This document shows positions 1 to 33,601 of a DNA stretch of 48,693 nucleotides, in pieces. Position 1 is the stretch's first letter, and every line of letters starts with the position of its first letter. Location of the stretch: assembly GCA_002790095.1 (NCBI GenBank), contig PFUL01000109.1, forward strand, positions 1-48,693. The letters run 5' to 3'. Below the pieces are notes generated by a model, which was given only the letters and a program-made list of their open reading frames with translations, searched no databases and was not told the DNA's origin. Made by a program: the position numbers and the translations under genes. The stretch comes from Elusimicrobia bacterium CG_4_9_14_3_um_filter_62_55 (GTDB lineage Bacteria > Elusimicrobiota > Elusimicrobia > UBA1565).

Positions 1-3000
1 GCGCTCTTCACGCGGCAGGCGTTCTCACCGGTCGTTGCCGAAGTCCAGTCGGGGACGACGAATTTCCCGGTGTTGAAAATCCAGGCGCAGGCGGATACCG
101 GGACGAGCGAGATTTCGAACATGGTGTTCCGATTGAACGGAACGCTCCCGTCCAATAACATTTCCCGCATCAATGTCTGGCGGGACGCGGAGCCGGATGG
201 GATCTTCAATCCGAATCTGGATGAAAAGCTTACCGCGGGGAGCGACGCTTTCTCGCAGGGAATTTCGACGGTTGTGTTCAGTCCCGCGCAGGCGCCGGTC
301 TCCTCCCGAACGGTCACGACCTCCCCGCGGCTCTACTTTCTGACCGTGGATATCGGAGCCGGGGCGACGCCTGGAGACGTCTTCTCCGTTTCGATCGCGA
401 CGGAGACCGACATTTTCCTCGGTAATTTCGCCGACACCGTCGCCTTCGCTTCCACCGGGGCGATTCGGTCGACGACGATGACGGTGATTCTTAATAATGC
501 CCTTTCGGTAAACATCGTCGATACGGTGGGGGCGTCCTTCACTCAAGGACAGCGCTATACCGTCGCGATCGCCTCCTTGTCCGTGAACGCGGCTTCGACG
601 CGGGTTGATCAATTTAAGATCGGCCGCACGGGGACGGGTGTCGACGCCGATATCGCCGGCGTCGAGATTTGGAAGGACTTGATTAAGGACGGCGGGCCGC
701 TCAATCCCGCGCTGGACATCTTCCTCGCCTCGACGACGTTTTCCTCTCAGTCGGCGACGCTGCCGGTCTCGACTCAGACGATCACGGCGGGGACGACGGA
801 GGCCTACTTCGTCGTCTACGAGATCGCCGGAGGGGCCAATCCCGGGAATACGCTTGGGGCGCAGTTCGGCCTCGGCGCGGTGCGCATCACGAACGCGAAC
901 ACCTCTCTTTCGGCGCCGTTTCCGTTCAACACGCTTAACGCTCCCGTGGTGGAAACAGTGAATCAACTGCTCGTCACGAACGCGCTGGACGTTACGGTCG
1001 GAAATCCGCGTCAGGGCGACCAGCACTTCCCGATGCTGAGGATGGACATCGCCTCGGATGCCGGAGACTTCCTCTGGCTGAATCTGGCGGTCGAAAAATT
1101 GGGAACCGCTTCCAGCACCGACGTGGCGAAGGTGAATCTCTTCCGCGATTTCGACGGCGACCAGGCGTTCGACGTCCTGGTCGACTCGCGCGTGACCAAC
1201 GACGCCCAATCCTTCGATTCGACGGGGACCGTTAACCTCTCGCTGACGGCGGTTCAAACGGTTAAGGCTTCGACGCAAACGTACTTCGTGACCCTCTCGA
1301 TGGCCGCGAATGCCGGACCCGGAGGGTCGATCGGTCTCCAGATCCCGACCACGGGAGCCTTCAACCTCATTTCCCCGAATACGGCCAACGCGAGCATTCA
1401 ATCCTACCCGATCAAGACTTCGACGGCCGTGGTCAATCCGTTTCAGAATACCGTGTCGCTTTCGTCTTCCAGCATCGCCCCCGTGGGCGGCGCCGAGCCC
1501 GGAGATCAGAATGTCGGGATGATGGAGCTCGTTTTGAGAACTGATATCTCCAACGCTCGCTGGCTTTCGCTGCAGGTAAACCAGGCGGGGAGCGCTCAGC
1601 AGGCGGATGTCCAGGCCGTTAAGATCTACTACGACTTCAACGACTTCGGCGTCTGGAATTCCGCGAATGTCGGCAACTACCAATTAGTCACCTCCAGCAC
1701 GCAAACCTTCGACGGAAGCGGCAACGTGACGCTTTCGTTTTCGACGCCGCCCGTGCTGTCGCCGACGCCCGCGCGCTATTTCCTTGTTGTCGACGTGTCG
1801 ACGAGCGCCGTTCCCGACCGCGCGATCACCGTGCGCGCCAGCACGGGGCCCTTCTTCGGGATTGAGGCGCCGAACTTCATCGACCCGGACGCGGTATTCG
1901 CGTCCCAGGCGCTTACGCTGAAGCCTCCGCCTGTGACGATGTTCGTCCAGGGCATCTCGTCGGCGCCGACGCAGGCGACGCAGGGGCAATCGAACGTCGT
2001 GATGCTGACGCTGCGTGCCTGGACGAGCGCATTCGACGCGGATTTCTCGGGTCTGACGGTGACCCGAACCGGGACTTCTGCGGATTCGGAGGTCTCTTCG
2101 GTGAAGCTCTACCGGGACGCGGACGCGGACGGGATTCTGAACGTTCTGGTGGATACGCGTCTGAGCACGAAAACCTTCAGCGGCGGAACGGCCGCTCTGT
2201 CGTTTCCGGCGGTTCAAATCACCGCCTCGACGCAGACCTTCTTCGTGACCTACGATCTCAGCAGCGTTGCGCAGGCGGGAACGACGCTCGGAGCGTCGAT
2301 CGTCGCCGCGGGCGACGTCGACATCGACACGCCGCCGAACTCGGTCGATACGGGCAGCTTCCCCGTGCAATCGTCGACTTCGGCTGTTTTGGCCACGCAG
2401 TCGGGTCTCTTCATGACCGCCGCGAATCTGGCCCCCGGAAAACTTAAGCAGGGGGCGACCCATCAACTCCTGATGAGCTTGGCGCTGCGAACGACCCAGT
2501 TCGCCCTTGCCTGGAACAACCTTACCGTGCGCTCCAGCGGAACCGCGTTGAGCGCGGACATCGCCGCGGTTAATCTCTGGCACGACGTCAATGAAAACGG
2601 CCAAGTGGATGCAAGCACCGATACGCGGATCACCTCCGGACTTAATTCCTTCATCGCGGGAGTCGCGGTTTTGAGTTTGGGCGCGGAGGAAATCGGGACG
2701 ACGGAGAAAAAATATCTTCTGACCGCCGATATCGCCGATTTCGCCGAGCCGGGTCGGACTTTTTTCGTCGTTCTCGCGTCGAGCGCGGACGTTTCCATCT
2801 CGAATCCGAATTTCGTGGTGACTCCCGGACCGTTCCCTGCCGCGTCGGATTCGAACACCGAATTAGAGAAGCTCGGCGAAGAAATCGCTTTTACCGCGAC
2901 CGACGCGGCTCCCAGCGGCGTCAACCAGGGATCCGAAGTGGCGTTCGTCAAGATCGAGGCCCGTGCGACCCGTTATCGAGGCGTCTGGACCGGTCTGACC

Positions 3001-4320
3001 GTTCAGAAACTCGGTTCGCTCTCCGATTCGGAAATCACCGCGCTCAATTTCTATCGGGACAGCGATCTATCGGGAACCTTCAACACGGGAGATGTCTTTA
3101 TCGGCAGCGGGGCGTTTGCCGGCAACCAGGCGGCCGTCGTCTTTTCTTCGGCGCAGACCGTAGGCCCGTCGACCCAGACCTACTTTGCCGCGCCGCAAAT
3201 CGCCCTCGCGGCCGCGGTCGGCTCGACGCTTCGTTTCTCGTTCGACAAAGCGGATTTCGCGATCGCGTCTCCGGATACGGCGGCGCAGGGGTCGCTTCCG
3301 TTCACGAACGCCGGTTTTTCGACGGTGCTCGACGCCACCACGCCGACTCAGCCCGTGGTGAGCGTGGACGGAGCGTACAGCAGTAATTTCGAGTACATGC
3401 ATTTCCTGTGGTCTTCGGCGGTGTCGATAGGACAAATCACCGGAGCCCTTTACGCGGTCGGCACGACTCCGGGGGGAACCGACGTTGTGGATTGGACGGC
3501 GCTCTCTGCCGACAATACCGATGTTCAGGCCTCGGGATTCGCGCTGCTGCAGGCGACGACCTATTACGTCTCGGTCAAAACGCAGGCGAACGCGCTGGAA
3601 AGCCCGGTGGGAACGTCCGATCCCGTCTTGATGGACTTCCAGACTCCCCCGACTCCGGCGCCGGCGGTGACGTCCGGAAACAACACGCTGCTGATCACCT
3701 GGGCGTCGGTCAGCGGGGGACCTTCCGGCGTGATGGGATATCTCGTGGAGTACCGGACCGAGCGAAATCCGGTTTGGATCAACGCGAAAACCGGTCAGAA
3801 GAGCACGACGCAGAGCTTGAACCTTGCGGGGGCTTCTGCGCCCGCGGGCGCTTCGTACGCGCTCGCGGTAAGTTCTTCGCAGGTCGTAACCGGCACCTCT
3901 TTCCAGGCGACCGGCGTCCCGACCGGAACCGCTTTCGTGCGCATCCGGGCCGCGTCGGGTTCCGGCGTCTTGTCGAACTCGAGTCAGGAAGTGAAGGTCC
4001 AGCTGGGAGCGCTGCCGAAGGACGGAATCGCGAACGCGTCGTCTTACCCGAATCCGTTCGATTCGCGCAAAACCTCGGCGCGGATCTACTACGAACTCAG
4101 TGAAAACGCGGAAGTGACGATCAAGGTCTACAGCGTTTTCGGACGCGAGTTGAAGGAAATGAGCTTCAGCGGCGGGGGCAACGGCGGCAATGCCGGGGCC
4201 AACACCGTGACGTGGGACGGCGCGGACGAATCAGGACGAAAGGTCTCCAAGGGCATGTACCTCGCGGTCATTCAATCGGGCGGCGCGAAAAAGGTCCTGA
4301 AAATCGGCGTAATCCACTAA
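1..4320 (+). CDS. Giant secreted repeat protein with FlgD-Ig-like C-terminal domain (5' partial)
   Basis: The frame is open from base 1, so the N-terminus lies outside the window. At least 1,439 residues are visible. Seven related units with a period of about 160 residues begin near bases 115, 605, 1070, 1555, 2035, 2510 and 2980. Each carries an L-x-V...GT...D motif, then an acidic D-x-D-x-D-like turn, then a 'tyr-phe-val' strand. Two fibronectin-III-like domains follow (about 3340-3640 and 3640-4010). The last 90 or so residues start with a YPNPF motif and end with a WDG...G-x-Y pattern, which is the FlgD-Ig or T9SS type-A sorting-domain fold. By family knowledge such tails anchor or sort secreted surface proteins. 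The acidic turns suggest calcium binding, but this is inferred. The next gene is a PorV-like barrel, a partner type expected for such a tail. Its ligand or substrate is unknown. Confidence 0.75.
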   Translation, partial: ALFTRQAFSPVVAEVQSGTTNFPVLKIQAQADTGTSEISNMVFRLNGTLPSNNISRINVWRDAEPDGIFNPNLDEKLTAGSDAFSQGISTVVFSPAQAPVSSRTVTTSPRLYFLTVDIGAGATPGDVFSVSIATETDIFLGNFADTVAFASTGAIRSTTMTVILNNALSVNIVDTVGASFTQGQRYTVAIASLSVNAASTRVDQFKIGRTGTGVDADIAGVEIWKDLIKDGGPLNPALDIFLASTTFSSQSATLPVSTQTITAGTTEAYFVVYEIAGGANPGNTLGAQFGLGAVRITNANTSLSAPFPFNTLNAPVVETVNQLLVTNALDVTVGNPRQGDQHFPMLRMDIASDAGDFLWLNLAVEKLGTASSTDVAKVNLFRDFDGDQAFDVLVDSRVTNDAQSFDSTGTVNLSLTAVQTVKASTQTYFVTLSMAANAGPGGSIGLQIPTTGAFNLISPNTANASIQSYPIKTSTAVVNPFQNTVSLSSSSIAPVGGAEPGDQNVGMMELVLRTDISNARWLSLQVNQAGSAQQADVQAVKIYYDFNDFGVWNSANVGNYQLVTSSTQTFDGSGNVTLSFSTPPVLSPTPARYFLVVDVSTSAVPDRAITVRASTGPFFGIEAPNFIDPDAVFASQALTLKPPPVTMFVQGISSAPTQATQGQSNVVMLTLRAWTSAFDADFSGLTVTRTGTSADSEVSSVKLYRDADADGILNVLVDTRLSTKTFSGGTAALSFPAVQITASTQTFFVTYDLSSVAQAGTTLGASIVAAGDVDIDTPPNSVDTGSFPVQSSTSAVLATQSGLFMTAANLAPGKLKQGATHQLLMSLALRTTQFALAWNNLTVRSSGTALSADIAAVNLWHDVNENGQVDASTDTRITSGLNSFIAGVAVLSLGAEEIGTTEKKYLLTADIADFAEPGRTFFVVLASSADVSISNPNFVVTPGPFPAASDSNTELEKLGEEIAFTATDAAPSGVNQGSEVAFVKIEARATRYRGVWTGLTVQKLGSLSDSEITALNFYRDSDLSGTFNTGDVFIGSGAFAGNQAAVVFSSAQTVGPSTQTYFAAPQIALAAAVGSTLRFSFDKADFAIASPDTAAQGSLPFTNAGFSTVLDATTPTQPVVSVDGAYSSNFEYMHFLWSSAVSIGQITGALYAVGTTPGGTDVVDWTALSADNTDVQASGFALLQATTYYVSVKTQANALESPVGTSDPVLMDFQTPPTPAPAVTSGNNTLLITWASVSGGPSGVMGYLVEYRTERNPVWINAKTGQKSTTQSLNLAGASAPAGASYALAVSSSQVVTGTSFQATGVPTGTAFVRIRAASGSGVLSNSSQEVKVQLGALPKDGIANASSYPNPFDSRKTSARIYYELSENAEVTIKVYSVFGRELKEMSFSGGGNGGNAGANTVTWDGADESGRKVSKGMYLAVIQSGGAKKVLKIGVIH

Positions 4321-4491: not shown

Positions 4492-6123
4492 ATGATCGCC
4501 GCGATTCACGCTTTGATCCAGGCGGTGCGGGGACCGGATCCGCGGCGAGGCGGGTTCACGACCGCCTGGGTCCTGATTTTCTCTATGGCGGCATGCCCGC
4601 GCTTTGCGGGCGCGCAAGTCGCAGGCCAGCCCGGCGAAATATACCAGTTCGGCGCCGGCGCCCGGGCGTTGGCGATGGGGAGCGCGCAAACGGCCGTCGT
4701 CCAGGACGTCAACGCGGTCTATTACAATCCCGCCGGCCTCGGCCTTCTGCCGGGACGCGAACTGCAGTTCATGCGCGCGAGCCTCTTCGAAGGCGCGAGC
4801 TACGACTATATCGCCTATGCGCAGAATAAGAAGAAGCGCGCGGGAGGATGGGGGTTCGAATTGATTCGTTTGGGCGTCAGCGGCGCCGAAGGCCGCGATG
4901 AATTCAACAACGAAGCAGGAGGCTTCGCGTATTCGGAAACCTCTCTCGGTCTCGCGCATGGATGGCGCGGCGTGTTCCATCCGAAGATGTCGATCGGAAT
5001 CAAAGGAAAGATGCTCAATCGAACGCTTGCCAGCTCTTCGGACCGTATAATTTCCGTCGACTTCGGTCTCCAGTCCGGCCCTTGGATGGACGAGAAGCTG
5101 ATGATCGGAGCGGTCGTCCAAAACGGGCTTGGCCTGGCTCAGGGGGACACCGATGATCGCCTCAAGCCGTTGATTCGCGCGGGAGTCTCTTACAAGGTCG
5201 TTGGGCCTCTTTCCTTGGCGGCGGATGTTTCCCAAAGTGGAGAATTTCGAATCGGCACGGAGTACGCCTTCGGGATGACCGCGCTCCGGGTCGGTATGAC
5301 CGATAGGTCGCTTTCCTTCGGCGGTGGACTCCAACTGCGTGAGAAGTACCTCCTCGATGTAGCGCTTCAAAATCACGCCGTGCTCGGCATGTCGCAGCGG
5401 ATTTCCGTCGGGTACCGTTTCGGGGAGCGGAAGGGGCTTAGCGGCGGCAAACCGCCGAAAATGCAGTTCTACGCTTCCGAATATCTCAACAACGCGTTGG
5501 CTGAGTTGAAGAAGCGAAACTATTTGAAGGCGTCGAGTGATTTGGATACCGCGCACGGAATCGATCCGAAGGTGTTCGGCGCGGAGTGGAAGCCGAAGGG
5601 CGAGAGGCTGCGAACGCTGGTGAAGGCTCTCGAACTCGAGGCGCACCCCGAGGATCAAAAGGCGTTTCAAGAAAATACCCCTGCGGCGTTTATCGCGTAC
5701 CAGGCGGTTCAGGCGTACATCGGAAACGAAGAAGACCGGGCCTCGCTGCTCGCGCACGCGGCGCTCGGTTCGGATCCGCGGAACCCCGGCTACCGGCGCT
5801 TGCTGGACGCGATCGGAAAGCTGACCGGCCGCGAGAAGAAGCGCGACGAAATTCTGCCTCCGGCGCGCCTGCTCGGCTTGAAAATGAAGTTCGCGGTCGA
5901 TGAAGTCTACCGGAGGCGCTTCCCTTCGGCGGTTGAAACGCTCCGTGAAGCGCTGTGGCTCGACCCGAACAACACGATGGCGTGGACCCGACTTGGCTCA
6001 TGCTATTACGCCATGGGAGACCGCGAGCGCGCTGCGGCGGCCTACGGGAAGGCCCTGGAGCTCGACCCCGCGGACCAGAAACTCAGGGCGTTCATGGAGA
6101 AGCAGGGCTTGGCCGGGAAATAA
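4492..6123 (+). CDS. PorV/UPF0164-like outer-membrane protein with C-terminal TPRs
   Basis: Starting at the ATG at 4492 gives 543 residues with an N-terminal signal peptide ending near FAGAQ. An upstream in-frame start at 4372 would lie in the terminator region and is rejected. The mature N-terminus carries 'GARALAMGSA' and 'AVYYNPAGL', which are hallmarks of the PorV/PorQ and UPF0164 outer-membrane barrel families. Alternating strands continue to about residue 310 (YRFGER). The second half is helical and ends in a clear TPR pair ('ALWLDPNNTMAWTRLGSCYY...ALELDPADQ'). PorV proteins in known type IX secretion shuttle substrates with C-terminal sorting domains, and the preceding gene encodes a protein with such a domain. 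A role in surface delivery is therefore plausible but inferred. Confidence 0.75.
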   Translation: MIAAIHALIQAVRGPDPRRGGFTTAWVLIFSMAACPRFAGAQVAGQPGEIYQFGAGARALAMGSAQTAVVQDVNAVYYNPAGLGLLPGRELQFMRASLFEGASYDYIAYAQNKKKRAGGWGFELIRLGVSGAEGRDEFNNEAGGFAYSETSLGLAHGWRGVFHPKMSIGIKGKMLNRTLASSSDRIISVDFGLQSGPWMDEKLMIGAVVQNGLGLAQGDTDDRLKPLIRAGVSYKVVGPLSLAADVSQSGEFRIGTEYAFGMTALRVGMTDRSLSFGGGLQLREKYLLDVALQNHAVLGMSQRISVGYRFGERKGLSGGKPPKMQFYASEYLNNALAELKKRNYLKASSDLDTAHGIDPKVFGAEWKPKGERLRTLVKALELEAHPEDQKAFQENTPAAFIAYQAVQAYIGNEEDRASLLAHAALGSDPRNPGYRRLLDAIGKLTGREKKRDEILPPARLLGLKMKFAVDEVYRRRFPSAVETLREALWLDPNNTMAWTRLGSCYYAMGDRERAAAAYGKALELDPADQKLRAFMEKQGLAGK

Positions 6124-6168: not shown

Positions 6169-7152
6169 GTGGAAATAGTCGTGGTCGCGCTGATTCCGGT
6201 ACTGTTTCTCGTGCTGGCCGCGAGCATGCTCGTCGTCAGCCAGGTCTCGAGCTTCTTTCAGTTCGGCCGTTACTCGAATAAGCGCCGTGAGGACCGCGCC
6301 GAGATCGAGCGCTTTATGGCGCAGCTCGCCTCGGCGCAATCTACGGTCGCGCGCAGAAAGAAGGAGCTCGAAAAGTTGTCGCAGAATTTGGCGAAGTCGA
6401 ACGAACAGCTGGAAGGCTTGAACTCGATGAAATCAAAATTTCTCTCCATGGCGGTCCACGACGTCCGCACTCCGCTCGCCTCGATCAAAGGCTTCGGGGA
6501 GATGCTCAGCCGTCAGCCGCTGGAGGGGACTCAAAAGAAATACGTGGACTATATCGTTCGCGGAACCGACCAGATCAATCGGTTGATGAGCGACTTGACC
6601 GACCTCGCGGTGATAGAGGCGGGAAAACTCCGGCTCGAGAAGAAGGAATTCTTTCTTCCGGAAATGGTTTCGGATATCGTCCCTGCGATCCGCGTGATCG
6701 CGGATAAAAAGGGCGTCAAGCTCGTCGCGCCGGAAGCGGAGGAACTCCCGAGAATTCCGGTAATCGGAGACCGGTTCCGCCTCGTTCAGGCGCTGATGAA
6801 TTTTCTCAATAACGGCGTGAAGTTCACCCCTCCCGGAGGAACGGTCGAGTTGAAGATAAGCGTGATCGGCCGCCGCGTGACCCTCGCGGTCAAGGATACG
6901 GGACCGGGAATTCATCCGGCGGAGCGCGAACGGGTTTTTGAAAAGTTTTACCAGAGCAAACACGCCACGGCCACGGACCAAAAGAAGGGGTGGGGATTGG
7001 GACTGGCGATCGCGCAGGAAATCATCCGCGGTCACAGCGGGGATATCGGCGTCGATTCCCCCGGTTTGGGCAAGGGGGCCACGTTTTGGTATCGCATTCC
7101 CATGAAGCCCCCGCGTCCCGCGGTACGCTCAACGGCGCAGGCGGCCGCATGA
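6169..7152 (+). CDS. Membrane-anchored sensor histidine kinase
   Basis: The start is a GTG preceded by GGAAGGAG at good spacing. The 327-residue protein has one N-terminal membrane segment (about residues 4-26), a coiled coil (about 40-85), then a HisKA domain with phospho-acceptor H97 in 'AVHDVRTPL'. The HATPase domain shows the N box 'NFLNNGVKFTPPGG', the G1 box 'DTGPGI', the F box 'FEKFYQ' and the G2 box 'GWGLGLAIA'. No periplasmic sensor domain or HAMP is visible, so it probably senses a membrane or cytoplasmic cue. Its stop overlaps the start of the FliF-FliG fusion gene (ATGA), which ties it to the motor module. The winged-helix regulator at 11532 is a candidate partner, by position only. 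Confidence 0.9.
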   Translation: MEIVVVALIPVLFLVLAASMLVVSQVSSFFQFGRYSNKRREDRAEIERFMAQLASAQSTVARRKKELEKLSQNLAKSNEQLEGLNSMKSKFLSMAVHDVRTPLASIKGFGEMLSRQPLEGTQKKYVDYIVRGTDQINRLMSDLTDLAVIEAGKLRLEKKEFFLPEMVSDIVPAIRVIADKKGVKLVAPEAEELPRIPVIGDRFRLVQALMNFLNNGVKFTPPGGTVELKISVIGRRVTLAVKDTGPGIHPAERERVFEKFYQSKHATATDQKKGWGLGLAIAQEIIRGHSGDIGVDSPGLGKGATFWYRIPMKPPRPAVRSTAQAAA

Positions 7153-8762
7153 GGCTCGCGGGGCTGTTTTTCGCGTTTGCACTGCCGGCCGCGGCGCAAA
7201 CAATTCCGCTCGAATCGAAATCAGCGTTTGAGACGGCGATGGAAAAACGCGCGGAATCGGTCCTGCTTCCGATCCTCGGGCCTTCCCGGTATCGGGTCGT
7301 GGTCGACGCGACGCTCGACTTTACTCGCATCGAAAGGTTCGAGGTGCAGGGCGGCGCGGCGAAAGACGCCGACAGGGGCGCCGTGTTCCTCTGGCAAAGC
7401 GTGGGACAGGAGGCGGTCGGACAAAGCGAACTGCTTCCCGGCATCCCCGAGCCGTCACCCGTTCCCGGCTTCGGCGGGTCGCAGTCCTACGAGCGGCAAA
7501 ATTCCTTTCCGACCGAGTTCGTGAAGCGAATGACGGTGACGTTGATTCTAGACGAAAGCATCCCGACCGAGATGGGCGACCGGCTTTCCCAGATTCTGCG
7601 GGGGATTTTGGACATGCGCCCGGATCGGGGAGACGTCCTCGACGTCGTAAAAGCTCCGTTCGCGCCGGCGTGGAAAACGATTTGGTATCGCCCCGACGCG
7701 GTCGGGATCTTGTTTAAATACGGCGTGATCGCCCTGATGACCCTGATCACCTTGATTGTCGTCGCCATCTGCTTCCTTAAGTTGGCGGAGGCAATGGATT
7801 CTATGGCGCAGGCGCAGGGAAACCAGCTCTCGATGGATTTCGGAGAAAAGGAGGGCGGCGGGAAAGAGGGCGAAGAGGACGGCAAGAAGGAAGGAGAGGG
7901 AGAACTCGTCGAAGAAGAGCCTTCAAACGCCATCTACTTCGATATCAAGCCGTCTCAAGTCGAAACCCTATGGGAGATCCTGCACCGGCAGGACCCGGAA
8001 AACATCGCGCTGGTCGTCGCGCATTTGAAGGCGGAGGTCAAAACGGCGTTTTTGGACCGATTGCCGACGAAGCTCTACAGCGCGGTCGTGATCAGTCTCG
8101 GCAAAGTGAAATTCATCGAACCGGACGTGGTGCAAACGGTAAAGGAAGAGCTTGAGCGGCGGCTGGAAAGCGCCGTCGGAGGGCGGCGGCAGCTGTTCAC
8201 GATGCTGGAGCGTGCCGACATGCGAACGAAGCGGGAGTTGCTCAGAATGCTCGAGATCCAGGACCCGGAAATGGCTTCCACGGTCCGCCCGCAGGTTCTT
8301 CTGTTCGAGGACGTGCGTTGGCTCGAGGCGCGGGAGTGGTCGCTGCTGCTGGGCCAGGTCAAGCTCGACGATTGGGCGTCGGCCTCCTATGGAGCGGAAC
8401 CGCTCGTGCGCGACGCGGTCCGAAACCAGATGGCCCCAAAAACCTGGGCGATTCTCGAGCAGATGACCGCAGCGGTCAAACCCAACGAGGGGCTCGTCGA
8501 CAAGGCTCAGGAGGCCGTCGTCGAGGCACTCGAGAAATTGATTTCCGATGGAAGAATCGAGAATCCCGTGAAACGGCGCCGAACGCTCGAGCCGGAGCCG
8601 ATCGCGGTGGCGGCGGGGATGGAGGGGACTTTGGGCGACGAGGCGCCGGCCCGCGCGCTGGAAGGGCCTCCTCCCCCGGCCCTCGAGCAGGAAGGGCCCC
8701 TTCCGCCGGAATACGGCGGAACCGGCGGCGCGGACGAAGGAGGGCCGCCCCCGCTCGGCTGA
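7149..8762 (+). CDS. FliF C-terminal/FliG single-chain fusion (flagellar-type rotor protein)
   Basis: The ATG at 7149 overlaps the kinase stop and opens a 537-residue protein with a signal peptide (cleavage near AAAQ). Residues about 22-180 match the C-terminal periplasmic part of FliF (ring-building motif 3 and collar): 'ILGPSRYRVVVDATLDF', 'PGIP...PVPGFGG', 'VKRMTVTLILDE' and 'RGDVLDVVKAPF'. A membrane segment (about 184-213) and a charged linker follow. Residues about 260-467 match FliG middle and C domains, including 'LLFEDVRWLEAR' and 'GAEPLVRDAVRNQM'. A Pro/Glu-rich tail ends the protein. A normal FliF has about 550 residues with two further ring-building motifs and an N-terminal membrane helix; these are absent here. 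In flagella FliF forms the MS ring and FliG receives torque from MotA. The fused form would place torque reception directly on a membrane ring. A flagellar role is unlikely given the absence of other flagellar genes in view. Confidence 0.8.
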   Translation: MRLAGLFFAFALPAAAQTIPLESKSAFETAMEKRAESVLLPILGPSRYRVVVDATLDFTRIERFEVQGGAAKDADRGAVFLWQSVGQEAVGQSELLPGIPEPSPVPGFGGSQSYERQNSFPTEFVKRMTVTLILDESIPTEMGDRLSQILRGILDMRPDRGDVLDVVKAPFAPAWKTIWYRPDAVGILFKYGVIALMTLITLIVVAICFLKLAEAMDSMAQAQGNQLSMDFGEKEGGGKEGEEDGKKEGEGELVEEEPSNAIYFDIKPSQVETLWEILHRQDPENIALVVAHLKAEVKTAFLDRLPTKLYSAVVISLGKVKFIEPDVVQTVKEELERRLESAVGGRRQLFTMLERADMRTKRELLRMLEIQDPEMASTVRPQVLLFEDVRWLEAREWSLLLGQVKLDDWASASYGAEPLVRDAVRNQMAPKTWAILEQMTAAVKPNEGLVDKAQEAVVEALEKLISDGRIENPVKRRRTLEPEPIAVAAGMEGTLGDEAPARALEGPPPPALEQEGPLPPEYGGTGGADEGGPPPLG

Positions 8763-8815
8763 CGGACTGGAAACCCTCGCGAGTTTGAGGCATCCTAGAA
8801 ACTGCGGAATAAGCG

Positions 8816-10039
8816 ATGGCAAAGGTTGAAAATCTACTGGCGACGCTGCGCGGCGAAGAGCCCGAGCCTGAAGCGCCTCCCCCGATGGAGGGGGGCGGAT
8901 CGGTCACGTCCGCCGAAGCGGTCCAGGAGGCGGTTGCTCCGCTTGAGGCGAGAATCGCGGAACTCGAGCAGCGGATCGCCGACGCCGTGCCCCCCGCCGC
9001 GTTTGAAGAGCCGCCGGCTCTGGAGGAAGCCCCGGCGTTCGGCGAGGAAATCCCGCCGGCGATGGGCGCGGATCCCCCGCAGAAACCTCCACCCGTGCCC
9101 CCCGCGGCGCCGACCGAGCTCGTCTTGTTTTTGCAGACGAAGATGGAGCTCTTGGAGAAGAAACTTGAGATTTCCCAGCAGGAGGCGCTCCGGTCCAACC
9201 TCGTGCTCCGCGAACGCGAACACGCGCAGCACAAGGCGCAGCGCGAGGTAGAGGATTTATTCCGCGGAATCCGCGAAGCGCAGCGCGCGCAGAATTTCGA
9301 CCGAACGCTTCGGGACCACTACTCCTCCGCGCTCCTGCGGGTCCGGGAGCTCGAGCAGCGGCTGGCGCTCGCGCAGCTTCGGATGATTCCGGCGGAAGAC
9401 GTCCTCGCGCAAATTACCGATGACGAGGGGCGCGCGGCTCTCGCCGCGCGCATCAAGGAGCAACTCGAAGAGCTGGAGAGAAAAACCGCTCCCCCAGCCG
9501 CCGGCGCGCCCGAGCCGCCGTCTTTCGAGCGCGTCGAGGACGCGGACGGTGAGGCCGCCGCGGACCGGGCAAAGGCCGGGTTTTCGAGACCCGTCTCCGC
9601 CGTTGCTCCCGATATCGACCTACCGCAGACCGCCGTTTTGCTGGGACGAATCTCCGATTTGGAAAACCGTCTCGAAGAGGCGCAGGAGGCCCGCAAACGT
9701 GAAGCCGACGCGCGGCGTCATTGGGAAGAGAACATCCTCTTCGCGCTTAAGAGCACGCGCCGACAATGGCAGAAAGCCGGAGGGCCTGAGATGCTCGTCG
9801 AGGCGGCCTTGGAAACGATGACCGATTCGCTTCAGGCCCGCGACGCGCTCCAATCCAAGATGAACGCTTTGGTCGCGAAGATTTCAGACGAGCCGCCGGA
9901 TTCGACGGAAACGGCGTCGCTCCGTGCCGGGCTCGCCGAGTGCCGATCCCGGATGGAGGCGCTCCAGGACAAGCTCGGCAAACAGATGGCGATCGTCCAG
10001 GCATGGGTGCAGCGCAGCAAGGGCAAGGGGGACGACTGA
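8816..10039 (+). CDS. Acidic Pro-rich coiled-coil protein of the motor module
   Basis: This 407-residue protein has no signal peptide or membrane segment and is probably cytoplasmic. It alternates Pro/Ala/Glu-rich linkers (about 15-100 and 220-265) with heptad-rich helices (about 40-57, 100-215, 275-315 and 370-400). I recognise no family. It lies 53 bases after the FliF-FliG gene, and its stop codon is 2 bases before the MotA start, so it is almost certainly co-expressed with them. Its position in the cluster resembles accessory or linker proteins such as FliH-like stalks, but there is no sequence support for that comparison. A role connecting the rotor to another cell structure is speculative. 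Confidence 0.7.
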   Translation: MAKVENLLATLRGEEPEPEAPPPMEGGGSVTSAEAVQEAVAPLEARIAELEQRIADAVPPAAFEEPPALEEAPAFGEEIPPAMGADPPQKPPPVPPAAPTELVLFLQTKMELLEKKLEISQQEALRSNLVLREREHAQHKAQREVEDLFRGIREAQRAQNFDRTLRDHYSSALLRVRELEQRLALAQLRMIPAEDVLAQITDDEGRAALAARIKEQLEELERKTAPPAAGAPEPPSFERVEDADGEAAADRAKAGFSRPVSAVAPDIDLPQTAVLLGRISDLENRLEEAQEARKREADARRHWEENILFALKSTRRQWQKAGGPEMLVEAALETMTDSLQARDALQSKMNALVAKISDEPPDSTETASLRAGLAECRSRMEALQDKLGKQMAIVQAWVQRSKGKGDD

Positions 10040-10041
10040 TC

Positions 10042-10779
10042 ATGGATTTTTCGACAATCGGAGGCGTTATCGGGGCCGTCGTGCTGCTGGCCCTCGGGAT
10101 CGCGACCGGCGAGGTCAACGAGGTCTTTCTCAACGCGCATGGAATCGTCATCGTTTTCGGCGGAACGCTCGTGGCGATGCTGATCAATACGCCGCTCTCC
10201 TACTTTTCCGCGACGCTTCGTGCGACGCTGGACCTGTTTCGTCCGGATCCCTACGGGGCTCCGGAAAAAATAATTCCGAATCTGGTGCGGTTGGCGGAGC
10301 AGGTGCAGGGTCAAGGGCTGGCGGCGCTTCGCGGCGTCGACGCGAAAGCTGCGGGGGGATTTCTCCAGGAGGCCGCGACGACCGCGCTGGAGTACAACAA
10401 CCCCGATTTCGTGAAGAAGGTCCTCGAAAACCAGGTCAACAACGGCGTCGACCGGGCCAATGAAGTGATCAACGTCGTGCGCACTGCAGGCGTGTTATCC
10501 CCAATGTTCGGCCTGCTCGGAACCTTGATCGGGATCGTTCAGGTCCTTAAGGTCATCGCCGATCCGGAAAAGGTCGGTCCGTCGATGGCGGTGGCGATCA
10601 CGACGGCGTTTTACGGGATCTCCTTCGCGAATCTCGTCTGCATACCGGTCGCCGGGAAGCTGCGAATGCGGTTGTGGGAAGAGATTAAGATCAAGGCGAT
10701 GGTCGTGGAAGGGATTCACGGGATGATGACGGGAGTCGTTCCGCTCGTTCTCGAGCGGCGATTACAGTCGTTCCGTTAA
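10042..10779 (+). CDS. motA: MotA-like stator subunit
   Basis: The protein has 245 residues starting at the ATG at 10042; an in-frame start at 9940 lies inside the upstream gene and is rejected. It has four membrane segments in the MotA layout: two near the N-terminus (about 4-22 and 32-50), a cytoplasmic loop of about 95 residues, and two near the C-terminus. The third contains 'SPMFGLLGTLIGIV' with P154 and the fourth contains 'FYGISFANLVCIP' with P202, matching the two conserved prolines of MotA. The cytoplasmic loop shows the usual 'RLAEQVQGQGLAAL' and 'FVKKVLENQVN' pattern. With MotB it should form an ion-driven 5:2 stator. It lacks the long cytoplasmic tail of ZorA defence proteins. Confidence 0.9.
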   Translation: MDFSTIGGVIGAVVLLALGIATGEVNEVFLNAHGIVIVFGGTLVAMLINTPLSYFSATLRATLDLFRPDPYGAPEKIIPNLVRLAEQVQGQGLAALRGVDAKAAGGFLQEAATTALEYNNPDFVKKVLENQVNNGVDRANEVINVVRTAGVLSPMFGLLGTLIGIVQVLKVIADPEKVGPSMAVAITTAFYGISFANLVCIPVAGKLRMRLWEEIKIKAMVVEGIHGMMTGVVPLVLERRLQSFR

Positions 10780-10788
10780 GGGAGCATC

Positions 10789-11484
10789 ATGTCGGTCTAC
10801 CGATTCAGAAAAGAAGAGCTCGAAGGCCATCTGAACAAGAATGCCCAGTGGGCGATTGTTTACGGGGACCTGATGAGCTATTTGATGATCCTTTTTCTGC
10901 TGATGCTCTCGTTTCAGATTTCCAAGAACGCCGACAACAAAAAGCGCGATCCGGTCGAAGAGAGTCTGATTCAGATCCAGCGCGTGTTCGGCGGTGAAAT
11001 CGATCCGCGCATCGCCGAAGCCTCCGAACAGCGGGACAAGGAATACTTGCTCGCCAACCAGCTTCAGCAGGACGCGGACCAGGGAGAGCTGGGAGACACG
11101 AGCCTGATGGTCACTGAGAAGAGCATCACGCTGAATCTCGGGGAGGGGGTTCTCTTCGACTCAGGGAAATCCGACTTGAAGGAGGAGGCCGATCAGGTTC
11201 TGGAGAAGATCGTGCAGCGCATGGTCAGCATGAAGAACACGATCCGAGTCGAGGGACATACCGACAGCGTGCCGTTGGGGAAAAACCTCAAATACTCGTC
11301 GAACTGGGAACTCTCGATGGCGCGCGCGCATTCCGTGATCGTGCGGCTGCAGTCGCTTGGCGTCGATGGAAAGAGGCTTGAGGGCGTCGGTCACGGTGAA
11401 TTCCGGCCGATCGCCGACAACAAAACGGCAGACGGGCGGGCGAAAAACCGCCGCATTGAGATTTCCCTTCTCAAGGCCGAGTAA
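10789..11484 (+). CDS. motB: MotB-like stator subunit with OmpA-type peptidoglycan domain
   Basis: The protein has 231 residues and begins 9 bases after motA. One membrane segment (about 22-43) contains 'YGDLMSYLMILF', placing D27 at the position of the essential ion-carrying aspartate of MotB. A short plug-like and linker region follows. Residues about 110-229 form an OmpA/MotB domain with 'EGHTDSVPLG', 'NWELSMARA', 'GVGHGEFRPIA' and 'RAKNRRIEI', which by family knowledge binds peptidoglycan. All residues expected for a working stator are present, so this is unlikely to be a decayed remnant. It completes the kinase-rotor-stator cluster. Confidence 0.92.
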   Translation: MSVYRFRKEELEGHLNKNAQWAIVYGDLMSYLMILFLLMLSFQISKNADNKKRDPVEESLIQIQRVFGGEIDPRIAEASEQRDKEYLLANQLQQDADQGELGDTSLMVTEKSITLNLGEGVLFDSGKSDLKEEADQVLEKIVQRMVSMKNTIRVEGHTDSVPLGKNLKYSSNWELSMARAHSVIVRLQSLGVDGKRLEGVGHGEFRPIADNKTADGRAKNRRIEISLLKAE

Positions 11485-11531: not shown

Positions 11532-12257
11532 ATGACCGCATCCCCGCTGAAGACGGCGGCCGCGCGCTTGTGGGCGGTGAGCCCGCGCGATCCGCAGGCC
11601 GCTCGATGGCGGGAACTTTTAAAATCCGCGGGCGCTCACGCGAGCGAACGCCTCAAATCGCTGAACGCGCTCGCGCAGGCGGCAGGGGAACGCTCTGAGG
11701 GAATTGCGCTCGTGGACGCGGCGCTGCTGGCGGGTCGCGCAAACGAAGGGGTGACGTCGCTGCGACGTCGCTGTCCTGGGGTGCGGCTTTTAGTCGTCTG
11801 CGAGGAGGTGGCTCTCGAGGGCCCTGATCTCGCGGACGCTCTTTCCGCCGGAGCGCTCGATTATCTTCGGGCCTCCCGTTCCGACGACGAGCTCGTGGAG
11901 AAACTTCGGGCGCATCTCACGCGTCTTTATCCAGGGAACCTGCGGTCCGAGGGCGCGGCCTTCGATGATTTGCGCATCGACTGGCGTTGCCGGGAGATTT
12001 CCGTACGGCGCGGACGAGGATGGAAATCCGTCGAGGCGTTGACCCCGAAGGAATTTGAATTGCTGCGCGCGTTCGTCGAGCTGAGAGGGAATAGGATTTC
12101 GCGCGGGGTCCTTCTCGACCGGGTTTGGAAAGGCAAGGGTGGAGACGTTAATCCGGAGTCGCTCGACAAGGCCGTCGGCTCGCTTCGCCGCAAGCTCGGC
12201 GCCGCGGGAAGGCGGATCGTCACGATTCGCGGCTTTGGCTACTCCTTCAAACCCTGA
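11532..12257 (+). CDS. OmpR-type winged-helix response regulator with atypical receiver
   Basis: The protein has 241 residues. The C-terminal part (about 145-241) is a Trans_reg_C winged helix with 'ALTPKEFELLRAFVE', 'RISRGVLLDRVW' and 'VTIRGFGYSFKP'. The N-terminal half folds like a receiver but lacks the usual acidic pair; an aspartate in 'ALVDAALLAG' may occupy the phosphorylation site. It could therefore act without phosphorylation or respond to an unusual signal. It starts 47 bases after motB. A weak promoter-like TTGCGC-N17-TACAAC ends 6 bases before the ATG, which would give an almost leaderless mRNA. It is convergent with the next gene and their stop codons abut. Confidence 0.85.
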   Translation: MTASPLKTAAARLWAVSPRDPQAARWRELLKSAGAHASERLKSLNALAQAAGERSEGIALVDAALLAGRANEGVTSLRRRCPGVRLLVVCEEVALEGPDLADALSAGALDYLRASRSDDELVEKLRAHLTRLYPGNLRSEGAAFDDLRIDWRCREISVRRGRGWKSVEALTPKEFELLRAFVELRGNRISRGVLLDRVWKGKGGDVNPESLDKAVGSLRRKLGAAGRRIVTIRGFGYSFKP

Positions 12258-14847: not shown

Positions 14848-15675
14848 ATGAACATGGACCATGTCCTCGCGCATCATTTGCTCGACCACAAAATCGCGGA
14901 CCTGTTCTCCCTGCACGGCATCGCCTTCGCACTCTCAAAGCACTTACTGACGATGTGGATCGTCGGTATCGGGCTTCTCGCGATTCTGTCGTATGCGGTC
15001 CACGGCAAGGGCGAGTTCGCGAAGATCCTGCGCCACGCGGTCGAAGTGATCGTGCTGTATCTGCGCGACGAGGTCGTTGAGCCCCTGCTCGGGCACGACG
15101 CCCACAAGTACCTGCATTACTTCCTGAGCCTGTTCTTCTTTATCCTCGGCTGCAACTACTTCGGCCTGATTCCGCTGGGCGACATTCTGCGTGCGCTGCA
15201 CATCCCCTTTACCGACGTCGGCGGGACCGCGACCGGGAACATCGGCGTCACCGCCGGTTTGGCGCTGTGCACGCTCGGCCTGATCGTCGTCGGAAGCGTT
15301 CGGGCGCTCGGCCCCGTCGGCTTCATCAAGAATTTCATGCCGGTTCCCGCCGACTTGCATTGGTCGATGAAGATCGTTCTGATGCCGTTGATGGGCGTCA
15401 TCGAGCTTATCGGCCTGGTCGTCAAGATTTTCGCGCTTACGGTTCGTCTGTTCGCGAACATGATCGCCGGGCATATCGTCATCCTGGGATTCTTCTCGCT
15501 GATCTTCATCATCGGATCGGCGAGTCAGCATCTGGGGATTTTCGCGGCCGGGCCGTTCGCGTTGGGGATGGTCACCTTCGTCAATTTCCTGGAGATCCTC
15601 GTCGGGCTTCTCCAGGCGTTCATTTTCACGCTGCTGACCGCGGTGTTCGTCGGGAGCATGCTGCACGCCCATTGA
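14848..15675 (+). CDS. atpB: ATP synthase subunit a
   Basis: The protein has 275 residues with five or six membrane segments and is the stator half of the proton channel. The essential arginine is in 'FALTVRLFANMIAGH', and the last helix carries 'FLEILVGLLQAFIFTLLTAVF' in the family pattern. Length is normal for the family. It begins the core F0 set, followed by atpE, atpF and atpH in the usual order. Confidence 0.95.
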   Translation: MNMDHVLAHHLLDHKIADLFSLHGIAFALSKHLLTMWIVGIGLLAILSYAVHGKGEFAKILRHAVEVIVLYLRDEVVEPLLGHDAHKYLHYFLSLFFFILGCNYFGLIPLGDILRALHIPFTDVGGTATGNIGVTAGLALCTLGLIVVGSVRALGPVGFIKNFMPVPADLHWSMKIVLMPLMGVIELIGLVVKIFALTVRLFANMIAGHIVILGFFSLIFIIGSASQHLGIFAAGPFALGMVTFVNFLEILVGLLQAFIFTLLTAVFVGSMLHAH

Positions 15676-15768
15676 GGGCGGATGGGATTTACGAGCCGCC
15701 CCCGTAACGAGGGGCGAGGTCGGACCCGGGTCGGTAAGAGCCCGGAATTGAAAAACGAGAGGAATTAC

Positions 15769-16059
15769 ATGTACGACATTGCATTCGGTTACCTTGGTGT
15801 CGCCCTCGGCGCGGGCATGGTGCTCATCGCCGCCGGATTCGGCATCGCGAAACTCGCCAGCGCGGCTCTTGAGGGCGCGGCGCGTCAGCCTGAAGCGGCC
15901 GGCTCGCTCCAGACGATGATGATCATTCCCGCGGCCATGATCGAAGGCGCGGCGCTCTTCGCGCTCGTGATCTTCTTCCTGGCGGGCGGAGCGCTCAACA
16001 CGAGCGTGACCTCCCAGGGCGGAGCCCAGGCCGAGTCGCACGCCTCGGCGTCGCACTAA
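15769..16059 (+). CDS. atpE: ATP synthase subunit c
   Basis: The ATG at 15769 follows GAGAGG at ideal spacing and gives 96 residues; an upstream in-frame start at 15682 adds an unlikely Arg-rich tail. Two hydrophobic helices flank the polar loop 'ARQPEAAG'. The ion-binding carboxylate is E59 in 'AAMIEGAALFAL'. The glutamine of helix 1 and the Ser/Thr after the glutamate that mark sodium c-rings are missing, so proton coupling is likely. The C-terminal 20 residues are a polar extension rich in Ala, Ser and His. Confidence 0.93.
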   Translation: MYDIAFGYLGVALGAGMVLIAAGFGIAKLASAALEGAARQPEAAGSLQTMMIIPAAMIEGAALFALVIFFLAGGALNTSVTSQGGAQAESHASASH

Positions 16060-16066
16060 TAAAAGT

Positions 16067-16100
16067 CCTTTCCCCCGCTGCTCACGCGGCGGGGGAAAGG
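16067..16100 (+). promoter_or_regulatory. Strong intercistronic hairpin between atpE and atpF
   Basis: Arms 16067-16081 and 16086-16100 form a 15-base-pair stem with one G-U pair and a TCAC loop, starting 7 bases after the atpE stop. There is no T-run, so it is not a normal terminator. It may protect the 3' end of an atpE message and raise the yield of subunit c, which is needed in many copies. Confidence 0.65.
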
Positions 16101-16136
16101 CCCGATTTGCCGTTTCGAATATAGACGGAGAATATA

Positions 16137-16640
16137 ATGGACAAGCTTCTTAGCCCCGATATCGGACTGATGATCTGGACGATCTTCTCGTTCTTGATCC
16201 TCGTATTTTTGCTGCGCGCGTTCGCGTGGGGACCTCTGCTGGCGTCGATCGACGCGCGCGACAACGCGCTTCGCGAGGAACGCGAACGCGCGGAAAAAGC
16301 CCGCGAGGAGTCCGAAAAAATCCAGAGGGACCTCGAAGCGCGGCTCGCCGTCGCGGCGGAAGAAGCGAAAGGGATCGTCGGTCAGGCGTCAAAGGACGCC
16401 GAGGCGCTTCGCTCGCGGCTGAAAGCCGACGCCGAAGACGAGGCTCGCGGCATGATCGACAAAACTCGGGTGCAGCTTGAGGACGAGAAAAACAAGCTTA
16501 TCGGGGAACTGCGCCGGGAAGTCGCCGACCTGTCGTTGACCGCCGCGGAGCGGTTGATCAAGAAGAGCGTCGACCCGTCGGTCAAGAAGACCGTTATGGA
16601 CGACTTCTTCTCCGAACTCGAAAAACAGAAGGCCGCCTAA
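16137..16640 (+). CDS. atpF: ATP synthase subunit b
   Basis: The 167-residue protein has one N-terminal membrane helix ('LMIWTIFSFLILVFLLRAFAWGPL') and then a long, charged coiled coil (about 40-165), the peripheral stalk architecture. 'RLIKKSVDPS' near the C-terminus is typical of the delta-binding end. A single b gene is present, implying a b2 homodimer. The gene is preceded by GGAG and lies 36 bases after the atpE hairpin. Confidence 0.95.
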   Translation: MDKLLSPDIGLMIWTIFSFLILVFLLRAFAWGPLLASIDARDNALREERERAEKAREESEKIQRDLEARLAVAAEEAKGIVGQASKDAEALRSRLKADAEDEARGMIDKTRVQLEDEKNKLIGELRREVADLSLTAAERLIKKSVDPSVKKTVMDDFFSELEKQKAA

Positions 16641-16642
16641 GC

Positions 16643-17176
16643 ATGAACATGAACGATCGCGTTCTTGCGCGGCGCTACGCGCTGGCTCTTTACCAGAGCG
16701 CGCAGGGGCTCAAGGAAGAGAAGACGATCGCCGAGGAGCTTTCGGCCGCCGCGAGGGCGCTCTCCGCCAACATGTCCGAGTTCAGCCACCCGCGCGTGAC
16801 GCTGGAAGACAAGAAATCGCGGCTTCGCGCGGCGTTGGGCGGGAAGTACTCCAAGCGAACGCTTCGATTTCTGGAACTTCTCATCGAGAAGAAGCGCTTC
16901 ATCCTGCTTCCGCAGATGGCGGTGGATCTCGGCAAGATTTACGACGAGGGCCGCGGCGTCGTGCACGCGTCGGTCCGCGCCGCCCACGAGCTCGACGAAG
17001 GGCAGAAAATGATCCTCGCGGAGCGTTTGGGCGCTTTCGTCGGGAAATCCGTCGTTTTGGACGTTCGTGTCGACGAGACCTTGTTGGGCGGCGCGGTCGT
17101 CCGGCTCGGAGACTGGACGTTTGACGCGAGTTTGAAGGGAAAACTGCGAACCCTGCGCGGCCGATTGGCCGCCTAA
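16643..17176 (+). CDS. atpH: ATP synthase subunit delta
   Basis: This 177-residue protein starts 2 bases after atpF. The helical N-terminal domain contains 'ARRYALALYQSAQG', and the C-terminal region carries 'DETLLGGAVVRLGDWTFDASLKGKLRTL', the family signature. Delta joins the peripheral stalk to the top of F1. Length and order are normal. Confidence 0.94.
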   Translation: MNMNDRVLARRYALALYQSAQGLKEEKTIAEELSAAARALSANMSEFSHPRVTLEDKKSRLRAALGGKYSKRTLRFLELLIEKKRFILLPQMAVDLGKIYDEGRGVVHASVRAAHELDEGQKMILAERLGAFVGKSVVLDVRVDETLLGGAVVRLGDWTFDASLKGKLRTLRGRLAA

Positions 17177-17209
17177 GACGCTTAACGAAGACAACAGACG
17201 AGGAAAAAC

Positions 17210-18724
17210 ATGGCCATCCGACCCGAAGAGATCACCGGAGTCATCAAGAAGCAGCTCGAAAATTTCGACGGCAAGACCGAGATCAAGGAAGAGGGCTTCG
17301 TGCTCCAGGTGGGAGACGGCATCGCCCGCATCTATGGGCTCGAGAACGCCATGGCCGGAGAGCTTTTGGAGCTCCCGCACGGCGTGTTCGGCCTGGTGCT
17401 GAACCTTGAAAAGGAAAACGTGGGCTGCGTGCTGCTCGGTGAGGGCGACATGATCCGCGAAGGCGACCCGGTCAAGCGAACGGGGCGCATCATGGAAGTT
17501 CCCGTCGGCGAGGCGCTCATCGGACGCGTCGTCAACGCACTGGGACAGCCGATCGACGGCAAGGGACCGATCGAAACGGAGAAGCGCCGCCAGATGGAGG
17601 TGATCGCTCCCGGCGTCGTGGAGCGTCAGCCGGTGACGCAGCCGATTCAGACGGGCCTGAAAGCCGTCGATGGAATGATTCCGATCGGGCGCGGTCAGCG
17701 CGAGTTGATCATCGGAGACCGCCAGACGGGAAAGACCGCCGTCGCCATCGATACGATCATCAATCAAAAAAATCAGAAGGATCGCCCGATCTGCATCTAC
17801 GTCGCGGTCGGTCAGAAACGTTCGACGGTCGCAAACGTCGTGAAGACGCTCGAAGAGCACGGCGCCATGGAGTACACAATCGTCGTCGCGGCGACCGCCT
17901 CGGAAGCCGCGCCGCTTCTTTTTATCGCCCCGTATACCGGCGTCGCGATGGGAGAGGAGTTGATGTGGGCCGGAAAGGACGTCCTCGTCGTATACGACGA
18001 CCTCTCCAAGCACGCGCAGGCGTATCGCCAGCTTTCACTGCTTCTGCGCCGCCCTCCCGGCCGCGAGGCGTATCCGGGAGACGTGTTCTACGTGCACTCC
18101 CGCCTGCTGGAGCGCGCCTGCAAACTGTCCGAGAAGAACGGAGGCGGCTCTCTGACCGCGCTGCCGATCATCGAAACCCAGGCGGGCGACGTGTCGGCGT
18201 ATATCCCGACGAACGTCATCTCGATTACCGACGGGCAGATCTACCTCGAGTCGGGTTTGTTCTACTCGGGCATCCGCCCCGCGGTGAACGTCGGTCTCTC
18301 GGTATCCCGCGTCGGCGGCGCCGCGCAGATTAAGGCGATGAAGAAGGTCGCCGGGAAGCTTCGCCTCGACCTCGCTCAGTACAACGAACTCGCGGCGTTC
18401 GCTCAATTCGGCTCCGATCTTGATAAGACCTCGCAGGCTCAGCTTGCGCGCGGCCAGCGGATGGTCGAACTGCTCAAGCAGGATCAGTACAAGCCGATGG
18501 CGGTCGAAGAGCAGATCGTTTCCATCTTCGCAGGCACCAACGGATTTCTCGACGACGTTCCGGTCGACGCGATCCGCCGCTGCGAGTCCGAAATGATCGA
18601 ATTCTGCAAGTCGCGCAAGGCCGATCTGCTCAAGAAGATCGTGGAAGAAGGCCAGATGACCGACGCGATCGCCGGGTCGCTCAGCGATGCGTTGAGGGAA
18701 TTCAAGCAGGGGTTCAAGGCTTAA
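17210..18724 (+). CDS. atpA: ATP synthase subunit alpha
   Basis: The protein has 504 residues of the non-catalytic F1 subunit. It shows the P-loop 'GDRQTGKT', '[13 protein letters not shown]' and the alpha signature around '[17 protein letters not shown]'. Its N-terminal '[17 protein letters not shown]' binds delta in homologues. Its TAA stop is immediately followed by the ATG of an unrelated exported ORF, so atpG is displaced by about 1.4 kb. Confidence 0.96.
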
Positions 18725-19219
18725 ATGCTCCGGGTGCGGGCTCGAATCCGTCGCGGTCTGACCGCGGCGCTTCTCGCGGCGCTCGCCGCGGGCGCGCCGG
18801 CGGCGGCCGAGAACGGCTTTAGAATCGATCCGCCCAAAATGGAGCAGGGACAACTGCTGAACCTCAGCCTGATCGAGGCGCTCGCGACGATCAAGGAGGA
18901 AAAGTTGTCCGGCGTCTTCGCGTTCATCGCGGAGGCGGATTCTTCGCTCGCGTTCGCGAATCTGCTCTTGGCCGATTCGAAATCCCGGGACCGGTTTTTG
19001 AAGGCTTGCGAGAGGATGCACACCGCCGCGGGCGCCATCAGCCGATGGGACAAGCAGGTGATCCTGCTGCTCGTGGGGATGAACAGTCAGAGGGAGTTCC
19101 CCCCGGGCATTCAGCCGATGTCGGAGAAGCAGCGTACCCGCATCAACAAGCTCGCGCTCATCCCCGGGGTCGCGATCGAAGAACTGCGCAACCGCATGGC
19201 CACGCGGGGGAAACGGTGA
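18725..19219 (+). CDS. Exported protein of unknown function inside the atp operon
   Basis: The ATG directly abuts the atpA stop. The 164-residue product has a signal peptide (Arg-rich start, hydrophobic core, cleavage near AAAEN). The mature part is mainly helical, with 'GQLLNLSLIEALATIKEEKLSGVFAFI' split over two helices and a basic C-terminus. I recognise no family. It overlaps the epimerase gene by one base (TGATG), so it is translationally tied to its neighbours. Nothing links it mechanistically to ATP synthase. Confidence 0.65.
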   Translation: MLRVRARIRRGLTAALLAALAAGAPAAAENGFRIDPPKMEQGQLLNLSLIEALATIKEEKLSGVFAFIAEADSSLAFANLLLADSKSRDRFLKACERMHTAAGAISRWDKQVILLLVGMNSQREFPPGIQPMSEKQRTRINKLALIPGVAIEELRNRMATRGKR

Positions 19220-20163: not shown

Positions 20164-20172
20164 AGGACTACG

Positions 20173-21452: not shown

Positions 21453-22919
<1,467 letters not shown>

Positions 22920-22937
22920 GCCTTCGGGACGGCGGTT

Positions 22938-32143: not shown

Positions 32144-32186
<43 letters not shown>

Positions 32187-33000: not shown

Positions 33001-33052
<52 letters not shown>

Positions 33053-33307
33053 AGTAACGATGGCCCCGCTGTCTCGGCCAACTGCTCGGCGAATTTGTGG
33101 TGCGAGTGAAGACGCTCGCTAGGCGTGGTTAGACGAAAAGACCCCGTGCACCTTTACTGCAACTTGACATTGTGTTACGGTTTTGAATGCGTAGGATAGG
33201 TGGGAGCCTTTGAAGCGGCCCTTGAGGGGGTCGTGGAGGCAACGGTGAAATACCACCCTTTTGGGACTGTGACTCTAACGTTGGGCCGTAATCCGGTCGA
33301 CGGACAT

Positions 33308-33361
<54 letters not shown>

Positions 33362-33492
33362 TACAAAGGTTCCCTCAGGCCGTATAGAAATCGGCCATTG
33401 AGCGCAAGAGCAGAAGGGAGCTTGACTGTGAGGCACACAAGCCGAACAGGGACGAAAGTCGGTTCTAGTGATCCGGTGGTTCGGAGTGGAAC

Positions 33493-33540
<48 letters not shown>

Positions 33541-33567
33541 GCATCCAAGAGTTCACATCGACGATGC

Positions 33568-33601
<34 letters not shown>

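Follow-up and report, generated by a model that had tools for sequence, protein, structure and literature searches.

The window analysed here, positions 1 to 48,693 of contig PFUL01000109.1 (assembly GCA_002790095.1) of Elusimicrobia bacterium CG_4_9_14_3_um_filter_62_55, carries a gene cluster that, judging from the architecture and conservation of its products and from the missing flagellar genes, very probably encodes a stand-alone rotary motor. At its core are a membrane-anchored histidine kinase (HK; positions 6169..7152), a rotor uniting FliF and FliG domains in a single chain (7149..8762), a proline-rich coiled-coil protein with zero predicted transmembrane (TM) segments (8816..10039) and the stator subunits MotA (10042..10779) and MotB (10789..11484), all on the + strand and where the original prediction, an earlier reading of the window's letters, had placed them. 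The unit is larger than the interval of that reading (6169-11484), which omitted the likely output genes upstream, and also includes a giant surface protein, a PorV-family gene with a TPR domain and an OmpR-type response regulator. Also overlooked were the five copies of the rotor locus in the genome and the union of kinase and rotor in one open reading frame (ORF) in 12 relatives. Together, these results suggest a flagellar motor rebuilt by evolution to drive something at the cell surface; the full proposal, an ion-driven stand-alone rotary motor of flagellar parts, connected with two-component signalling, by which PorV-carried surface proteins are moved, we regard as evenly poised.

The single-chain rotor, its stator and its kinase

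Profile searches recovered the FliF and FliG domains that the original prediction had assigned to one chain, with Pfam matches to FliG_C (6.6e-13), FliG_M (1.1e-10) and YscJ_FliF_C (6.5e-6), no YscJ_FliF domain, and FliG_N under the cut-off (0.083). A signal peptide (7149-7200) with an A-x-A|Q site is followed by the ring-building motif RBM3 (~7206-7658), a TM segment (~7722-7778), FliG_M (~7962-8177) and FliG_C (~8247-8561). A profile of 21 relatives searched against the PDB matched FliG (1lkv, 1.2e-36) and, over the RBM3 region, solved FliF chains (1.7e-6 to 4e-4). The ring question was addressed with monomer models only; the AlphaFold model of the fusion (mean pLDDT 75.6) comprises an RBM3-like domain, a single long TM helix and the FliG M and C domains, Foldseek matched it to FliF S-ring/RBM3 and FliG MC structures, and its FliG_C superposed on 1qc7 with a TM-score of 0.93 and an rmsd of 1.1. 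TM predictions were consistent with a topology in which the kinase and FliG lie inside and RBM3 outside. Since PF01514 (FliF N-region) has zero matches in the source genome, with positive controls, we judge RBM1 and RBM2 to be missing, as had been proposed together with the loss of the FliF N-terminal helix; FliG_N is gone too. At the level of sequence, the rotor is RBM3 joined via its TM segment to FliG_M, with RBM1, RBM2 and FliG_N absent.

The stator is of the full-length flagellar (PomA/MotA) type. MotA matched MotA_ExbB in Pfam (8.8e-21), MotA/PomA in the PDB (5e-30) and, with the equivalog cut-off missed, PomA in NCBIfam (5e-46), and MotB, with its plug/TM region and OmpA-type peptidoglycan-binding domain, matched MotB_plug (3e-8) and OmpA (5.5e-20) in Pfam. 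The channel aspartate MotB D27 and the prolines MotA P154 and P202, said to be intact in the original prediction, show conservation of 90% or more among 40-46 homologues, and MotB W21 is conserved alongside D27. The channel Asp, the prolines and the peptidoglycan-binding domain are thus all present.

The torque interface gave a different picture when compared with the flagellum (residue numbers are those of the E. coli proteins, mapped from printed alignments and the known E. coli sequences). Among 46 MotA proteins, the R90 site is R in 32, Q in 10, H in 3 and K in 1, the window having Q, while the E98 site is basic in 40 of the 46 (K 31, R 9). In the fusions, the FliG R281 site is basic in 45/52 and E occupies the 287 site in 43, while D288 is replaced by Q and D289 by a neutral residue. 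The FliM-binding motif EHPQ is replaced mainly by E-D-P-A in an otherwise conserved FliG_MC, which agrees with FliM being missing. These patterns indicate that, in sequence, the MotA-FliG interface is conserved within the fusion family yet rewired relative to the flagellum.

The kinase has one N-terminal TM segment, a coiled coil, HisKA (2.3e-17) and HATPase_c (4.5e-25), and no sensor domain recognised in Pfam and NCBIfam searches. In the window it meets the rotor gene in an ATGA overlap with a frame change, and the window alone in its clade has the two genes split; as the exception, this separation reflects either a derived state or a misassembly. The fused relatives examined have, between kinase and RBM3, a hydrophobic stretch and then an A-x-A|Q-like site, so that signal peptidase may cleave the one-ORF chain into kinase and rotor. 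The OmpR-type regulator, encoded at 11532..12257 on the + strand (Trans_reg_C 5e-17; degenerate receiver, Response_reg 0.16), is kept downstream of the motor genes in close relatives and is the probable partner of the kinase. HKs or receivers also adjoin the rotor in two sister subfamilies (A and C). It is from co-translation and neighbouring regulators that we infer the role of the kinase, and the kinase-rotor ORF forms a direct genetic link from a rotary motor to signalling.

Flagellar genes and rotor loci across the phylum

The source genome is an Elusimicrobiota metagenome-assembled genome (MAG) with a 4.31-Mb assembly that is 95.4% complete; genome-wide statements rest on family profile searches, and the phylum survey covered 248 Elusimicrobiota genomes from 76 genera. 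A fusion match was present in 92 of these genomes and 48 of the genera, and bacteria of this little-studied phylum often have more than one copy of the motor genes. The named relatives of the locus are Elusimicrobia/Elusimicrobiota MAGs, and a profile scan of named genomes, tuned to the subfamily of the window, matched only Elusimicrobia or MAGs without a name. Five fusion loci were found in the source genome (contigs C106, which is the window, C119, C198, C90 and C32), those on C90 and C32 having no adjoining MotAB.

A flagellum encoded elsewhere in the genome was rejected by these searches for the FliF N-region, FlhA, FliM/N and full-length FliG. The source genome lacks matches to the export gate FlhA (PF00771) and to FliM/FliN (PF01052), with positive controls, and its FliG matches (TIGR00207) span positions 106-332 of 338, with no full-length protein among them. 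Rod, hook and filament proteins were not seen in the window, their families not being searched genome-wide. FlhA occurs in 3/248 genomes, and FliM/FliN rose over the cut-off only in those three. The proposal of a motor without a flagellum withstood this check, with 91 of the 92 fusion-bearing genomes having no FlhA; only G215 has both FlhA and a fusion. Flagellated relatives in the phylum are few (G032, G215 and G246), and in G215 flagellar genes (FlhA, FliM/N, FliG) coexist with a type B fusion locus (L160, L173).

Synteny across about 50 named loci, in some of which genes were called with codon models taken from similar loci, rules out a chance arrangement of ORFs. Two gene orders prevail in these loci: PorV-TPR, HK, MotA, fusion, coiled coil and MotB; or giant protein, PorV-TPR, kinase and fusion in one ORF, coiled coil, MotA, MotB and regulator. 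Type B loci have PorV-TPR, fusion, a 635-930-aa coiled coil, FlbD, MotA and MotB; FlbD-MotA-MotB is an order known from flagellar operons, and in locus L059 FlbD was found by Pfam and missed by NCBIfam. In type C loci, PorV, HK, fusion and a coiled-coil/HATPase protein are divergent from MotA, MotB, a PAS-HK and receivers, and in L165-L168 several HKs and receivers surround the rotor, with a HATPase_c coiled-coil protein directly after it (domains from L165). Type D loci have PorV, the fusion and two giant coiled coils, with MotAB not nearby; in L056, L159, L164 and L170 these are 1600-1850 aa, with a TPR-like end, and 740-1000 aa. The reading of giant ORFs beside some fusions as SprA paralogues was rejected on a zero SprA-profile match and their coiled-coil appearance. 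Type E loci have PorV, the fusion, MotA and two MotB genes. Across the loci, MotA lies within seven genes of the rotor in 46 of the 54 that were evaluable, and most subfamilies pair the rotor with a coiled-coil protein. In the FliG_MC tree the fusions, the long-branch row L062 excepted, form one group (90/90) distinct from flagellar FliG; A and C are sisters in it, and B, D and E fall together. The best reading is that the motor was exapted once from flagellar parts.

PorV, surface proteins and the type IX context

Upstream of the rotor on the same strand, within four genes, PorV occurs in 48/54 evaluable loci from five subfamilies; PorV matches account for 66 of 1028 genes. C-terminal TPRs were found in 60/62 rotor-adjacent PorV proteins versus 0/4 others, a count biased towards type A because the TPR profile was built from it. 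The PorV-TPR gene of the window (4492..6123, + strand) matched PorV_fam NF033709 (1.3e-17), with the NCBIfam subfamily cut-off missed, and its alignment profile matched PorV 6h3i_F (1.1e-18); its model (pLDDT 85.6) has a FadL/OmpG-like outer-membrane barrel, with strands at residues 89-310, followed by TPR helices at 322-537. PorV is itself often preceded by a giant surface protein that has a type IX sorting domain. That of the window (1..4320, + strand), truncated at its 5' end by the contig start, carries C-terminal FlgD_ig and T9SS type A sorting-domain matches at ~4045-4305 (TIGR04183, 23.6 bits against a cut-off of 23, residues 1349-1435 of 1439; FlgD_ig, 27.9 bits), and the source genome has 13 FlgD_ig matches. 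These neighbours lend support to the surface or envelope output suggested in the original prediction, and from the synteny in five subfamilies and the type IX context we lean towards a link between the motor and PorV-carried surface proteins.

An SprA translocon, a PorV shuttle and sorting-domain cargo are all present. SprA-like proteins of 1700-1900 aa are near-universal in Elusimicrobiota (213/248 genomes; A2 profile against SprA 6h3i, 7.6e-35); that of the source genome lies at C103:14263-19614 (L185:7231-12618). The type IX secretion system (T9SS) is usually described as restricted to Bacteroidota. All fusion-bearing genomes except G224 (91/92) have SprA, and in searches run without a positive control GldL was found in 1/248 genomes (weak, below cut-off) and GldM in 0/248. 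SprA also occurs in 122 genomes that have no fusion, which makes the motor dispensable for type IX-like export as such and weakens the idea that the rotor is the only type IX motor. An open frame of 13,346 aa that ends in a T9SS-like C-terminal domain was observed at G000:C26 (L186).

Elsewhere in the window, the 23S rRNA gene (31005-34636; 3632 nt) has an insert at 33632-34252 with a weak match to the group I intron family RF00028 (24.5 bits, E 0.0027, below the gathering score), and the ATP synthase cluster (14848-23393) is interrupted by genes of ~164, 314 and 126 aa that are not obviously synthase.

Possible mechanism, rival readings and significance

From the gene content, domains, synteny and absences, we infer that the RBM3 domains would assemble in the inner membrane as a periplasmic ring, which would turn as peptidoglycan-anchored MotAB pushes on the cytoplasmic FliG_C domains. 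Perhaps through contact with the TPR tails of PorV-like proteins and other periplasmic parts, the ring would drag outer-membrane carriers and the giant sorting-domain proteins they hold, much like a small rotating track, so that the output would be adhesin movement (gliding or surface attachment) and not swimming. Together with OmpR-type or CheY-like regulators, the kinase would read or control the state of the motor, and on the cytoplasmic side coiled-coil proteins may replace the missing FliM/FliN. More tentatively still, and possible rather than probable, this may be a trans-envelope FliF-FliG/MotAB motor for type IX-like proteins via PorV-TPR, with the rotor-linked kinase as a load sensor, which arose by one ancient exaptation in Elusimicrobiota and was then duplicated into several specialised motors per cell.

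Several observations weigh against surface-protein movement by such a motor. No rod is known, and RBM3 by itself may fall short of the outer membrane; the torque residues are in sequence unlike those of the flagellum (MotA E98 to K/R, FliG D288/D289 lost), so standard flagellar coupling cannot be assumed; a nearby MotA is wanting in some loci; every genome with a name is a MAG; and both the SprA genomes without a fusion and the uncontrolled GldL/GldM negatives count here too. These last two points bear also on an alternative that we consider unlikely, in which certain giant cargoes are exported in type IX fashion through SprA with energy from the motor, which would replace GldL/GldM and not move proteins already exported; in its favour, PorV-TPR and sorting-domain giants share rotor operons, SprA accompanies the fusion in nearly every genome, and GldL gave one match below cut-off and GldM none. 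Since SprA often occurs where there is no rotor, we favour the movement of surface proteins over a role in general export.

Less probable again is that the system is mainly a load or surface sensor, in which MotAB would rotate or strain the ring while doing little mechanical work, and the kinase attached to it would signal resistance to regulators. The one-ORF kinase-rotor, the kinase without a recognised sensor domain and the extra HKs and receivers flanking a sister subfamily fit such a sensor, but no adjacent kinase is annotated in 3/5 sampled subfamilies, and the conserved A-x-A|Q-like site suggests that kinase and rotor are cleaved apart. We find it improbable that the genes are leftovers of a lost flagellum, now functionless or a non-rotary scaffold: the parts are flagellar and flagellated relatives persist in the phylum, but active-site residues are conserved, copies have multiplied and diversified in ordered operons with new partners across 48 genera, and G215 holds flagellar genes and the fusion together.

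The proposed surface-protein motor shares FliF RBM3, FliG_M/FliG_C, full-length MotA and MotB and, in one fusion subfamily, the FlbD-MotA-MotB order with the bacterial flagellar motor. It differs in having FliF and FliG in one chain, in lacking RBM1/2, FliG_N, FliM/N and FlhA, in its lost FliM motif and rewired torque charges, and in its coupling to genes for PorV-TPR, surface proteins and kinases. FliF-FliG fusions from Salmonella and Vibrio laboratory work form rings (PMC6079021, PMC11481574) and are likewise one chain, but full-length and in or for flagellar systems, whereas the Elusimicrobiota fusion is natural, minimal and found in genomes without flagellar export genes. With the Bacteroidota type IX/gliding apparatus (GldKLMN, SprA, PorV, SprB/SprF; PMC12635249) it has in common a PorV-family barrel, sorting-domain surface proteins, SprA in the genome and an expected ion-driven motor; here, however, that motor would be FliF-FliG/MotAB, PorV has a TPR domain, and GldL and GldM are untraced. 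The MotA/TolQ-like Myxococcus AglRQS-Glt gliding motor (PMC9120999) also employs flagellar-stator homologues without a flagellum, but no FliF/FliG ring is known there, whereas the system here has a full flagellar-type stator and its own rotor. Lacking the export gate, switch and complete FliF/FliG of a flagellum, without traceable GldL/GldM, and set apart from Agl/Glt by its rotor, the putative assembly is filed outside the known kinds, a label for the assembly and not for a function, even though each part belongs to a known family.

In the open-access literature, outside which most subscription journals lie, we found no description of such an Elusimicrobiota system (FliG, gliding, type IX); the original prediction likewise knew of no characterised stand-alone system of this make-up. 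Rotor proteins without a filament are reported in 11% of non-motile species, a finding posed as an open question (PMC12199754), and uncultured Elusimicrobiota have been reported to be flagellum-less yet cellulose-binding (PMC7031533). If the proposal is true, the ion-driven outer-membrane systems known so far (GldLM, AglRQS, Tol, Ton) would be joined by a machine with a rotor ring, a minimal natural FliF-FliG ring would become available for structural work, and there would be a hint of how cellulose-binding Elusimicrobiota without flagella interact with surfaces.

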